From NCBI GenBank assembly GCA_025456225.1, contig JALOLB010000002.1:1-47336 (forward strand): a stretch of DNA of 47,336 nucleotides, given 5' to 3'. The stretch comes from Thermoanaerobaculaceae bacterium. Lineage in GTDB: Bacteria > Acidobacteriota > Thermoanaerobaculia > Thermoanaerobaculales > Thermoanaerobaculaceae. The notes beneath the pieces were generated by a model, which was not told where the DNA came from, did no database searches, and saw only the letters and a program-made list of their open reading frames with translations. Positions 24,790 through 45,543 of the stretch are shown here, one piece after another. Position 1 is the first letter of the stretch. Each line of letters starts with the position of its first letter. The translations under genes and the position numbers were made by a program.

Positions 24790-26589
24790 CTACGGGAGCG
24801 TGATCGTCTTCGAGACGGCGCCCGCCTTGAGCGAGGTGAACGCAAAGGTGACGTCGCCCGTGCCCGAGAGCAGGAACTGGTACTCGACCTTGCCGTAGCC
24901 GGGCACGTGCACCATCTGGACCTCGGGCTTGTGGTCCTTGTACTCGACCTGCTCGAGGTAGGGGTCGGTCAGCTTGCCGCCGGCCACGACCTTCACCGAG
25001 GCGCCCCGCACCGTGAGCGTGTCGAGGGCCGCGGTGCGCTTCCCGACGGTCTGGAAGGTGCGCGTCGGCAGGCCACCGCTGTTGCCGAGCCGGACGCGGA
25101 CCTTGTGGAGGCCGGCGCCCAGCTTCTCGGTGCTCAGGACCTCCATGGCGATCCGGGGCGTCTCGGCGGCCGCGAAGAGCACCGCGGCGGCGTTGCGGTG
25201 CACGAGGTCGGCGAGCATGAAGGGGTGGGGGAGCCGCGAGCTCATCTTGACCCACCCGCCGATCTCGATGTCGCCGTACTGCGGGTGCTTGAAGGGGGCC
25301 CAGGGCTTGAAGAGATCCCCCTGCGCGACGTGGTCGCTGAACTTCAGGCGCTCGCGCTCCCGCTCGGGGTTGGGGCGGAAGTCCGAGTCATCGTCCTCGG
25401 CGGGCGCGGGCGTGGCGGGATCGGGCGGGCGATAGGTCTCGGCGGTGGTCTGGAACAGCTCCGTCACGAAGCTGAAGGCGCCGGCGTGGGCGTAGGTGAA
25501 GCTGTCGAAGTCGCCGTAGGTGGGGTAGAGGTCCTTCCAGGAGACCATGTAGCGGTATCCGGGGACGATCTTCTCGGCGTTCTTGCCGAGGAGGTCGTAG
25601 GCCGCGACGTCCTGCGGGTCCATCGGCTCGTCGGCCTTGGTGCCGGGGCCGCGCAGGAACATGCCGCCGTTGTTGTGCAGCGCGTAGGTCGCGATGATGT
25701 TGGGGCGGGCCATGATGTAGGCGGCGACCGCGCGCGGTCCCGCCGCCGAGAACGGGAAGTCGCCGGAGCCCTCCTGGACGTAGGGCGGCGCCCAGGCCCA
25801 GCCCCAGTTGCGGTTCCCGTCGAGGTAGCCCTCGGCATCCTCGTTGACCTTGCCGTCGCCGTCGTTATCGAGCCCTTCCTCGCCCAGGATCGTCCACTCG
25901 CCCTTCTCGCCGGGCTTGATGCGCAGGAGCAGGCGCGGGTCCTCGGGATCGGCCTTCCACTGGCCGAAGGGGTCCTTCTTCCGCATCCGGCAGATGCTGC
26001 CGTCGCCGTCGAGGTCGTCGGGGAAGTCCTCGTCGACCAGGCCGTCGCGGTCGTCGTCGCGCGGCACGCGCATGCTCCGGCCCGAGCTCGGGGTGTTGGG
26101 GTCGTGGAAGAAGTGCCAGCGGCCGTCCGCGTTGACCACCGGGATCACGTAGAAGGCATTGCGGTCGACGACCTTGCTGATCTGCTCGTTCGTGCCGTAC
26201 CCGGTGAGCAGCCAGTTGAGGAGGTACAGGCAGACCTCGCCGCCCTGGACCTCGTTGCCGTGGATGTTGGCGTCCACGTAGACGCCGGGCTTCGTGAGCG
26301 GCGCCCCCGTCTTCGGGTTGTTGACGGTCATGGCCCAGATCTCGCGACCCTCCTCGGTCGTGCCGACCACCTCGAGCTGCGCGAGCTCCGGGAACGCGGC
26401 CGCCAGGGCCCGCAACGCCTCGCCGACCTGCTCGTAGGTGTAGTAGGCGTCGAAGCGCAGCGGCACGACGATCCTGGACGTCTGCGTGAACTGCTGCGGC
26501 CGGCTCCCCACCGGCTCGGGGGCCTGAGCTTGCCCGGGTTGGGCCAGGGCGAGGCCGAGCAGCGCGAGCAGCGTGATCGGCGTTCTCAT
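24790..26589 (-). CDS. M14 family zinc carboxypeptidase with internal Asp-rich (EF-hand/calcium-loop-like) insertion
   Basis: Signal peptide; YTYEQVGEALRAL, DANIHGNEVQGGE zinc ligands, YALHNNGG, FSFVTELF; DRDGLVDEDFPDDLDGDG and LDNDGDGKVNED. Confidence 0.92.
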   Translation of the reverse strand: MRTPITLLALLGLALAQPGQAQAPEPVGSRPQQFTQTSRIVVPLRFDAYYTYEQVGEALRALAAAFPELAQLEVVGTTEEGREIWAMTVNNPKTGAPLTKPGVYVDANIHGNEVQGGEVCLYLLNWLLTGYGTNEQISKVVDRNAFYVIPVVNADGRWHFFHDPNTPSSGRSMRVPRDDDRDGLVDEDFPDDLDGDGSICRMRKKDPFGQWKADPEDPRLLLRIKPGEKGEWTILGEEGLDNDGDGKVNEDAEGYLDGNRNWGWAWAPPYVQEGSGDFPFSAAGPRAVAAYIMARPNIIATYALHNNGGMFLRGPGTKADEPMDPQDVAAYDLLGKNAEKIVPGYRYMVSWKDLYPTYGDFDSFTYAHAGAFSFVTELFQTTAETYRPPDPATPAPAEDDDSDFRPNPERERERLKFSDHVAQGDLFKPWAPFKHPQYGDIEIGGWVKMSSRLPHPFMLADLVHRNAAAVLFAAAETPRIAMEVLSTEKLGAGLHKVRVRLGNSGGLPTRTFQTVGKRTAALDTLTVRGASVKVVAGGKLTDPYLEQVEYKDHKPEVQMVHVPGYGKVEYQFLLSGTGDVTFAFTSLKAGAVSKTITLP

Positions 26590-28628
26590 CGCGCACCTCC
26601 CACCTTGACCTCGGCCGCATCGCCCCAGGCGTTGGCCGACTCCAGGCGCACCGTGACGGTCCCGGGCCGGTCGGCCCGTACGAGCCAGGTCAGCTTGGTC
26701 GCCTTGCGGCCTTCCAGCTCCTTGATCGGGGTCCGGGCCTTGCCCGAGAGCAGCGCGGCGCCCGCGGTCTCGAGGATGACGACGGCGGGTGCAGGCTGCT
26801 GGTTCCGCTTCCCCATGGCAGTCGGGAACGGGAGCGAGCCCGTGTTCTCGACCCACACCGCCAGCTCGTGCACGCCGCCGCCCTTTGCCGCCACCTCGGT
26901 CCTGGCGATCTTCAGGCGGGCCAGCTTCTCGGCCAGCGTCAGGACCCACGGCACCTGGCCGTCGAGCAGGGTTGCGAGCATGGCGGCAGGGGGTGTGGTG
27001 TCAGCGTACGGCACTGCGCCGCCGATCTCCACCTCGCCGAGGGTCGGGTGCTTGAAGGGGGTCCACGGGACGAAGCCCTTGCCCCCCAGCTCCTTGTCGC
27101 TCCAGGCTAGCAGCGCCTTCTGCCTGGGATCGCCGCCCTCGCCGCCCTTGGGTTTGGGCATCGCCCGGAGCATGCCCGCCATCTGCTTCGGTGTCATCTG
27201 GCCGCCCTTGACGCCCGCGATGAGGTCCGCCGCCTTGATCTCGGGCGGCGCGCCGACCTCCTTCAGGAACGCCGCGACCTTGGCCTCCCCGAGCGCCACG
27301 AACGTTTCGCTGCTCATGGCCTCCAGGGTGTCGGCCGTGATCCCGGTCTTCTCCTTCGACTCGTCCGCGCTCTCGGGCGGCGTCCACAGGTCCATGCTGA
27401 ACGTCGGGACGCCCATGTGGTAGTAGGACCACAGCTCGGGTGAGCCGTCCCGGGCCTGAGCCGGGTCGAGCCGCTTGCCGTCGAGCTTGACGGCCTTGAG
27501 GAGCTCCTTGTAACGCTCGGAGAGCTCCTTGTAGAGCTTGACGTCGTCCTCGAGAGGGTTGACGACGGCGCCCAGGCCGAGGAAGGAGGCCACCACCGAC
27601 TCGGTGATCTCGAACCCCGGCGGCGCGATCGGCCGCACGAAGTCGAGGATCTCCTGCATGGTGTACGTCCTCGCCGGGTCGAGCCCGACGCGCTTGGCCA
27701 TGTCCTCGGGGACCTTGATCTCGGTGAAGTCCACGGACCCCTTGCGGCCCCCCTCGGGCGGGGCGATGCAGGTGTTGGTCGCACCGAAGAGGAACGTCAT
27801 CGCGATCTCAGGGTGGGCGAAGGCGAACCGCAGCAGGCCGTAGGTCTCGGCCTCGCTGCCCGGCCACCGGCCGCCGGTCGCGGTGAAGGGCCTGAACAGG
27901 TGGGGGAAGGTCACGCCGATGTCGACGCCACCGGGGCCGTCCTCGTTGGTCGCACCGTCGCCGTCGTTGTCGACACCCTCGGTGTGGAGGAAGAAGAGCC
28001 CCTTCTCCCCCTTGGCCGGGTCCGCCTTCCGCATGAGCCGGGGGTCGGCCTCGACCGGGAGCCACTCGCCGGAGGGGTCCTTGACCCGCATCGCGGTGAT
28101 CACGCCGTCGCCGTTGAGGTCCTCGGGGCCGTCCTCGTCGGTCTGGTCGTCGAGGTCGTCGTTGACCCTGGTGCCGTTGCGCGGGTCGGCCACCAGCGGC
28201 CGGGCGAAGTAGCGCGCCGCGGCGTCCGGGTTGCCGTTCGGCACGATGAAGTACGTCATCTCCCTGGTGGCTTCCGGCTTGGAAGCGAGCAGCGTGGCGA
28301 GGCGGAGCGCCGCCTCGGTCGCGACGGGGAGCGTGCCCTCCATGTTCGCCAGCACCAGCACGGCCGGGAGCCGCCGCGCCGGGCGGCCGACCTCGGGCCC
28401 GATCTCGAGCACGAGGACCTCGTGGCCGCCGGGACTGGTCGCGATCGTGTGGCGCGCCGTGGTCGCCGGGCTCGCCTTGACGAGGGCGTCGAGCGCGGCG
28501 ACCACCTCCCGGGGTGCGTGGTAGCGGTCGAAGCTGACCGTGGCCGGCTGGGCGGCCGCCGTCGTCGAGGTGAGGAGGGCGAGGAGGAAACCTCCCGTCC
28601 ATGCTGCGCGTCGGGCAAGCTGGGTCAT
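26586..28628 (-). CDS. M14-like paralog, predicted catalytically inactive
   Basis: Shares SFDRYHAPREVVAALDAL, NGDGVITAMRVKDPSGEW, VDNDGDGATNEDGPGG, PFKHPTLGEVEIGG with the neighbour, but HxxE replaced (NMEGTLP) and ALH replaced (FLFGATN); ATGA overlap. Confidence 0.85.
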   Translation of the reverse strand: MTQLARRAAWTGGFLLALLTSTTAAAQPATVSFDRYHAPREVVAALDALVKASPATTARHTIATSPGGHEVLVLEIGPEVGRPARRLPAVLVLANMEGTLPVATEAALRLATLLASKPEATREMTYFIVPNGNPDAAARYFARPLVADPRNGTRVNDDLDDQTDEDGPEDLNGDGVITAMRVKDPSGEWLPVEADPRLMRKADPAKGEKGLFFLHTEGVDNDGDGATNEDGPGGVDIGVTFPHLFRPFTATGGRWPGSEAETYGLLRFAFAHPEIAMTFLFGATNTCIAPPEGGRKGSVDFTEIKVPEDMAKRVGLDPARTYTMQEILDFVRPIAPPGFEITESVVASFLGLGAVVNPLEDDVKLYKELSERYKELLKAVKLDGKRLDPAQARDGSPELWSYYHMGVPTFSMDLWTPPESADESKEKTGITADTLEAMSSETFVALGEAKVAAFLKEVGAPPEIKAADLIAGVKGGQMTPKQMAGMLRAMPKPKGGEGGDPRQKALLAWSDKELGGKGFVPWTPFKHPTLGEVEIGGAVPYADTTPPAAMLATLLDGQVPWVLTLAEKLARLKIARTEVAAKGGGVHELAVWVENTGSLPFPTAMGKRNQQPAPAVVILETAGAALLSGKARTPIKELEGRKATKLTWLVRADRPGTVTVRLESANAWGDAAEVKVGGAR

Positions 28629-45224: not shown

Positions 45225-45346
45225 CCTCGGCCTCGTCGTAGGCCTCGGGGCGGACGCGCGGCGTGGACACGGCGACACGAGCGGGCTGGTCGCCGGCGCC
45301 GAGGTGGGACGGCTGAGCCGCTTGTGAAACTCTCGACGCTCTGTTC

Positions 45347-45461
45347 CTCCCCCTCGCCCCCGCAGGGGGAGAGGGCCGGGGTAAGGGGGTACAACTCATT
45401 TCGTTTCAAAAACAAAGCGCCCCTCACCCTATCCCTCTCCCCGCTTCGCGGGGCGAGGGGA
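45347..45461. repeat. REPIN-like pair of inverted REP hairpins
   Basis: CCCTCGCCCCCGCAGGGGGAGAGGGCCGGGGTAAGGGGG ... CCCCTCACCCTATCCCTCTCCCCGCTTCGCGGGGCGAGGG, inverted, AT-richer core between. Confidence 0.7.
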
Positions 45462-45543
45462 CCGGAGCGGCAACCCTTGAGAAGTCGGATTCTGTAAGAA
45501 GCTCGGCTGTCAACCGGACGGTGGCTGGCTCGTCAAGTGGGAG

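Follow-up and report, generated by a model that had tools for sequence, protein, structure and literature searches.

The question raised by this locus is why the gene of an apparently intact zinc carboxypeptidase should be preceded, directly and on the same strand, by the gene of a homologue that has lost its zinc site, and whether that homologue is a decaying duplicate, an enzyme of another kind, a protein with a job of its own or a partner of the live enzyme. The two genes lie on a contig of a Thermoanaerobaculaceae bacterium (GCA_025456225.1, JALOLB010000002.1), the window, i.e. the whole stretch of DNA analysed, being 47,336 nucleotides long.

An active-type carboxypeptidase and its degenerate paralogue

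The downstream gene encodes a protein of 599 amino acids (P0001) which scores 130.6 bits against the Pfam Peptidase_M14 model (PF00246; cut-off 21.6 bits) and has the following features:

24790..26589, minus strand: downstream gene, active-type M14 zinc carboxypeptidase P0001, 599 aa (Pfam, catalytic set, Foldseek)
26251..26262, minus strand: HGNE zinc-binding motif, H110 and E113 (sequence and clade alignment)
25828..26058, minus strand: Asp-rich insertion, residues 178-254 (alignment)
25810..25815, minus strand: N259-R260, equivalent to N144/R145, substrate carboxylate binding (sequence and clade alignment)
25675..25677, minus strand: H305, third zinc ligand (sequence and clade alignment)
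25459..25461, minus strand: E377, catalytic Glu, equivalent to E270 (sequence and clade alignment)
25252..25296, minus strand: PFKHPxxGxxEIGG block, residues 432-446 (alignment and hhalign)

With ligand and catalytic residues numbered as in bovine carboxypeptidase (H69, E72, N144, R145, H196, E270), the motifs HGNE (H110/E113), GNRNW (N259/R260), ALHNN (H305) and VTELF (E377) supply everything that an active M14 enzyme has, namely the HxxE and third-His zinc ligands, the catalytic Glu and the Asn-Arg pair, and from this complete set carboxypeptidase activity of P0001 is predicted. The AlphaFold2 model, with a pLDDT of 64 weaker than that of the upstream protein, matches carboxypeptidase T (Foldseek, E 2.7e-14), and all matches listed are M14 proteins. 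In an alignment of 145 proteins, H196, E270, N144 and R145 are present in 67/67 downstream proteins and H69/E72 in all 66 that cover the HxxE region; the 67th (L140) stems from a gene split by a frameshift, the 5' fragment of which, with the HxxE region, was left out.

The upstream gene encodes a longer protein, P0002, with these features:

26586..28628, minus strand: upstream gene, M14-fold pseudopeptidase P0002, 680 aa (Pfam, Foldseek, residue loss)
28329..28340, minus strand: EGTL (E97, L100) replacing HxxE (sequence, alignment, hhalign)
27927..28163, minus strand: Asp-rich insertion, residues 156-234, common to the enzyme (near-invariant Asp/Gly/Glu in both clades)
27783..27785, minus strand: G282 replacing the third His ligand (sequence, alignment, hhalign)
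27390..27392, minus strand: D413 replacing the catalytic Glu (sequence, alignment, hhalign)
27018..27059, minus strand: PFKHPxxGxxEIGG block, residues 524-537 (sequence, alignment, hhalign)

Its membership in the M14 family is supported by Pfam (27.5 bits against PF00246, above the 21.6 cut-off), by a match of its profile to solved M14 chains (E 3.9e-9) and by its AlphaFold2 model (pLDDT 75, pTM 0.69), the best structural matches of which are M14 carboxypeptidases (Foldseek, E 3.6e-10; again, all listed matches are M14). In both models confidence is low in the Asp-rich insertions and in several active-site loops. In P0002 Pfam finds, at E values up to 1, the M14 domain only and thus no discoidin domain, and no NCBIfam model matches either protein.

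At the ligand and catalytic sites P0002 reads NMEGTLP, GVTFPH, FLFGATN and FSMDLW, corresponding to H69>E (E97), E72>L (L100), H196>G (G282) and E270>D (D413), with N144/R145 also gone, so that neither a zinc ligand nor the catalytic Glu of an active M14 enzyme is left. Judged from these residues P0002 is presumably catalytically inactive. The two proteins can be aligned over about 600 residues with 26% identity (BLASTP, E 3e-29), and the profiles of P0001 and P0002, each with its orthologues, match with a probability of 100% (hhalign, E 3.5e-60), the pairs being E97/H110, L100/E113, G282/H305 and D413/E377. Both proteins have an Asp-rich insertion of about 75 residues between the HxxE and Asn-Arg positions, which may bind calcium, and an EIGG block adjoining the C-terminal beta-rich part; insertion and block are near-invariant and common to both clades.

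The original prediction, made on the DNA alone, had described a downstream gene retaining HGNE, LHNN and VTELF and an upstream degenerate paralogue with NMEGTLP and FLFGATN which shares the Asp-rich insertion and the C-terminal PFKHPxxGxxEIGG block. For both genes coordinates, reading frames and motifs are exact in the sequence, the shared regions are seen in the alignments, and all three zinc ligands of the upstream protein are indeed missing. A misalignment hiding zinc ligands in 26586-28628 is ruled out, as BLASTP, MAFFT and hhalign are concordant and none of them recovers any.

The loss extends to the whole upstream clade, where H69, E72, H196 and E270 are present in 0/65 proteins. The H69 position is occupied by Glu/Asp in 52/65 and by Ser/Thr in 12/65, the H196 position by Gly in 52/65 and the E270 position by Asp in 51/65 and Pro in 12/65, while the E72 and R145 positions are the most variable of the former catalytic sites. 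The replacements at most former catalytic positions are thus themselves conserved and non-random, and further conserved residues are particular to this clade (P134, N151, H243, E261, H272, Y402 and W415), of which H243 (89%), H272 (91%) and E261 (97%) are not conserved in the enzyme. This re-conservation would fit an upstream protein that is still an enzyme, with another metal site or reaction via E97, H243, H272, E261 or D413. Such an activity is nevertheless very unlikely, as Ser/Thr at H69 and Pro at E270 in 12/65 proteins each leave no single three-ligand set throughout the clade, and the low-confidence loops of the model do not allow a site to be built.

Recurrence and order of the two genes

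About 65 homologous loci were collected via 297 Acidobacteriota genomes and GTDB contigs, after which their wider surroundings were fetched. The pair is hosted by Acidobacteriota (including Aminicenantes), Bacteroidota, a Chlorobiota metagenome-assembled genome and an unassigned bacterium. In 60 of 64 loci (a few of them being one genome, or close copies, present in two collections) both genes are found on the same strand and in the same order, with the dead gene directly upstream; the other four end at a contig edge, at or just past the upstream gene. Likewise, wherever a downstream-clade gene was found in the 297 Acidobacteriota genomes, either the upstream type or the end of the contig comes before it. 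In one genome (G017) the 345 bases that remain up to the contig end code for the C-terminal part of an upstream protein, and in another (G242) the pair is split between two contigs, with one gene at the edge of each. Among the loci examined, no intact context contained one clade without its counterpart, and the contingency noted with the original prediction, that the pair might never co-occur elsewhere, is dispelled by its presence in every intact-context locus. Obligate pairing of the dead and the live gene is therefore strongly supported, and with a recurrence in about 65 loci the pattern is not due to chance. No third gene is conserved across lineages, neighbours being limited to one group, and the unit is therefore the pair.

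This strict pairing bears on the possibility that the upstream protein has a separate job, for example to bind peptides or cell-surface material via a rebuilt pocket, with the operon reflecting a common need for two proteins that make no contact. The dead clade's own conserved residues N151, E261, H243, H272, Y402 and W415 would accord with such a role, as would the greater length of the dead protein and the binding of other proteins, e.g. collagens, by animal M14 pseudopeptidases (PMC11266112). However, co-regulation alone rarely preserves strict order and adjacency in all intact loci across several phyla, and neither clade is found without its counterpart, so that a separate job appears rather unlikely.

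Several variants surround the common arrangement. In 10 Bacteroidota loci (L040-L045, L048-L050, L056) the gene immediately before the pair, on the same strand, encodes a member of one protein family of about 410 amino acids, the tested copy being without a Pfam match. An Aminicenantes locus (L039:3594-9324) has a single upstream pseudoenzyme gene and, behind it, the genes of two active downstream enzymes in tandem. A second, deeper pair type (L092-L096, L140-L146), with EGDH-like and STPGW motifs in its upstream proteins, coexists with the first in some genomes, e.g. G264, G170, G072 and G216. The more distant relatives within the Asp-insert family (L128-L138) occur as single genes; among them, the M14 proteins at L133:2914-5031, L134:2869-4854, L135:1625-3577 and L138:4666-6780 have kept HxxE and the catalytic Glu, with the third zinc ligand changed to Asp and N144 to His, perhaps an altered zinc site.

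The junction of the two genes is equally compact. In the window the two genes overlap by four bases, which contain both the upstream stop and the downstream start:

26586..26589, minus strand: ATGA start/stop overlap, 4 bases (sequence)

A 4-base overlap is found at 31/70 junctions, that of the window included, and at most of the other 39/70, which lack it, a short gap of no more than 36 bases separates the genes. The overlap thus fits translational coupling, which would be common, not universal. On this point the original prediction went too far in part: the ATGA overlap is present and coupling fits, but the 'stoichiometric synthesis' which it read from the overlap is more than an overlap shows.

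Gene order also invites the suggestion that the upstream protein is a folding helper or inhibitor which is made first, keeps the enzyme inactive until export and then departs, in replacement of a pro-domain in cis as found in some M14 enzymes, digestive ones among them. The dead gene is always first, overlapping or nearly touching the enzyme gene, and the approximately 40 residues that precede the catalytic domain of the enzyme are too few for a large pro-domain. Nevertheless, the upstream protein retains a full-length M14-like fold and every shared domain, more than a pro-domain-like function calls for, and the single-gene relatives do without an upstream protein; a helper that departs accordingly has only a small chance of being the answer.

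Selection and origin of the pair

Thirteen close locus pairs had a usable dS; in these, the dN/dS of the upstream gene is 0.07-0.21 and that of the downstream gene 0.04-0.15. In most of them the dead copy evolves somewhat faster than its live counterpart. Because of these low ratios neither gene is decaying and the dead copy is under purifying selection; P0002 is consequently a pseudopeptidase in the sense of an M14 homologue under selection which has lost its active site. The view of the upstream gene as a functionless, decaying duplicate, to which the lost catalytic residues and a copy with an in-frame stop (L072) might be taken to point, is extremely unlikely, the loss being old, the gene present in every intact pair and its Asp-rich and EIGG blocks near-invariant; as a pseudogene reading it is refuted by the selection data and the conservation.

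In an IQ-TREE phylogeny of 59 rows the upstream proteins form one clade and the downstream proteins another, with support of 100/99 each, and a larger quick tree gives the same split. The zinc site was therefore probably lost a single time, in the distant past. The order of events is addressed by L139:2857-6905 (genome G194), where two M14 genes stand in tandem, each with an intact zinc site. The first gene branches beside the upstream clade, while the second falls at the base of the downstream clade (99/89); a tree joining the two is rejected (p-AU 0.023). This would fit a tandem duplication that came first and a loss of the site that came later, a provisional reading as both rows are long branches, and this tandem possibly resembles the pair as it was before the loss. 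Protein distances among upstream and among downstream proteins are correlated (0.95 over 65 loci), which is expected from the shared descent of linked genes and is no proof of contact.

The pair of the window is flanked by a GGDEF protein gene and a sigma-54 regulator gene, each about 330 bases off. It is absent from 39 near relatives of the window's genome, and its nearest kin in the tree are from Chlorobiota, Bacteroidales and other Acidobacteriota. Another gene of the window, Oxidored_FMN, is also patchy across the phylum. Over its right-hand 18 kb the contig resembles DNA of the same genus and family (about 69-84% over stretches of 0.4-2.3 kb), which makes a mis-binned contig less likely than transfer (or loss in relatives). 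The simplest reading is that the window's pair was gained horizontally as a unit, and as a unit the pair appears to have moved between lineages. A search for plasmid carriage of the pair gave one weak archaeal M14 match with no second M14 gene adjoining. Elsewhere in the window, at 45313-45504, a roughly 190-base element with internal inverted repeats adjoins an S15/PepX peptidase gene; at least 13 further copies, 80-93% identical and on both strands, are found on the genome's other contigs, and together they resemble a dispersed family of the MITE/REP type.

A proposed secreted enzyme/pseudoenzyme pair

The conservation of the dead copy suggests that it is a required partner of the live enzyme, and the reading that is favoured, with moderate confidence, is that of a secreted heterodimer whose dead subunit shapes the live one, activates it or holds it in check. 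The original prediction, too, had suggested a regulatory or heterodimeric pair as a possibility, and this is the best inference; no experiment on such a complex was found in the literature searched. The two-gene operon would then encode a secreted enzyme/pseudoenzyme pair, in which the downstream zinc carboxypeptidase would trim C-terminal residues off peptides. The upstream M14-fold paralogue, with metal and catalysis lost, would fold and act with the live enzyme outside the cytoplasm, where it may form part of the substrate cleft, stabilise the live subunit or switch its activity. Secretion of both proteins is likely from their N-termini as judged by eye; the physical complex is putative, as is the direction of regulation. 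Counting against a heterodimer are the single-gene Asp-insert relatives, which indicate that the fold needs no partner, the absence of the 4-base overlap from 39/70 junctions and the faster evolution of the dead copy. A more specific version, in which the dead pocket (around E/D97, H243, G282 and D413) has been turned into a ligand site which would recognise peptide C-termini or peptides of the cell surface and switch the live subunit allosterically, is quite improbable; if true, it would constitute a bacterial M14 sensor-peptidase heterodimer common to several phyla.

By analogy, a heterodimer of this design would have precedents. Prokaryotic M16B proteases include two-gene heterodimers (PMC12731061, PMC11266112) with the zinc motif in one chain (PMC12731061), such as SPH2681/SPH2682, TTHA1264/TTHA1265 and AlbE/AlbF. 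As in the window, neighbouring homologous genes encode two homologous subunits of which one is without the metal motif. However, fold and family are unrelated, as the window pair lacks the HxxEH motif and the M16 fold (its Pfam and listed Foldseek matches are M14), and the complex is established for M16B and putative for the window pair. In Trypanosoma an active AdoMetDC is switched on by a dead paralogue, prozyme, as described for T. brucei (PMC5201418); this is another enzyme, of a eukaryote, and no operon is involved.

Within the family, both window proteins have the fold of M14 metallocarboxypeptidases (PF00246; carboxypeptidases T, A, B, D, M and N), to which they add the Asp-rich insertion and the EIGG block, while the zinc and catalytic set is shared by the downstream protein only. 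P0002 resembles AEBP1/ACLP, CPXM1, CPXM2, CPD domain III and Ecm14 of animals and yeast, in which active-site residues are likewise replaced on an M14 fold. These pseudopeptidases all keep H69, and all except CPD domain III keep E72 (PMC11266112), whereas the bacterial clade has none of the three ligands and is genetically linked to its active sister gene; in contrast to the AEBP1/CPX type, P0002 has no N-terminal discoidin domain. A 2024 review of pseudopeptidases lists four vertebrate M14 members and one characterised yeast member, and prokaryotic two-gene operons for M16 only (PMC11266112). No description of a bacterial M14 pseudopeptidase was found in the open-access literature searched, where the M14 pseudopeptidases described are animal and fungal.

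With respect to this literature, the upstream clade would be the first bacterial M14 pseudopeptidase family found described, and what is new here is a pseudopeptidase lineage genetically bound to its enzyme. The pair offers a compact bacterial system in which dead/live pairing is fixed in the gene order, and it makes testable why an enzyme comes to depend on its dead twin.
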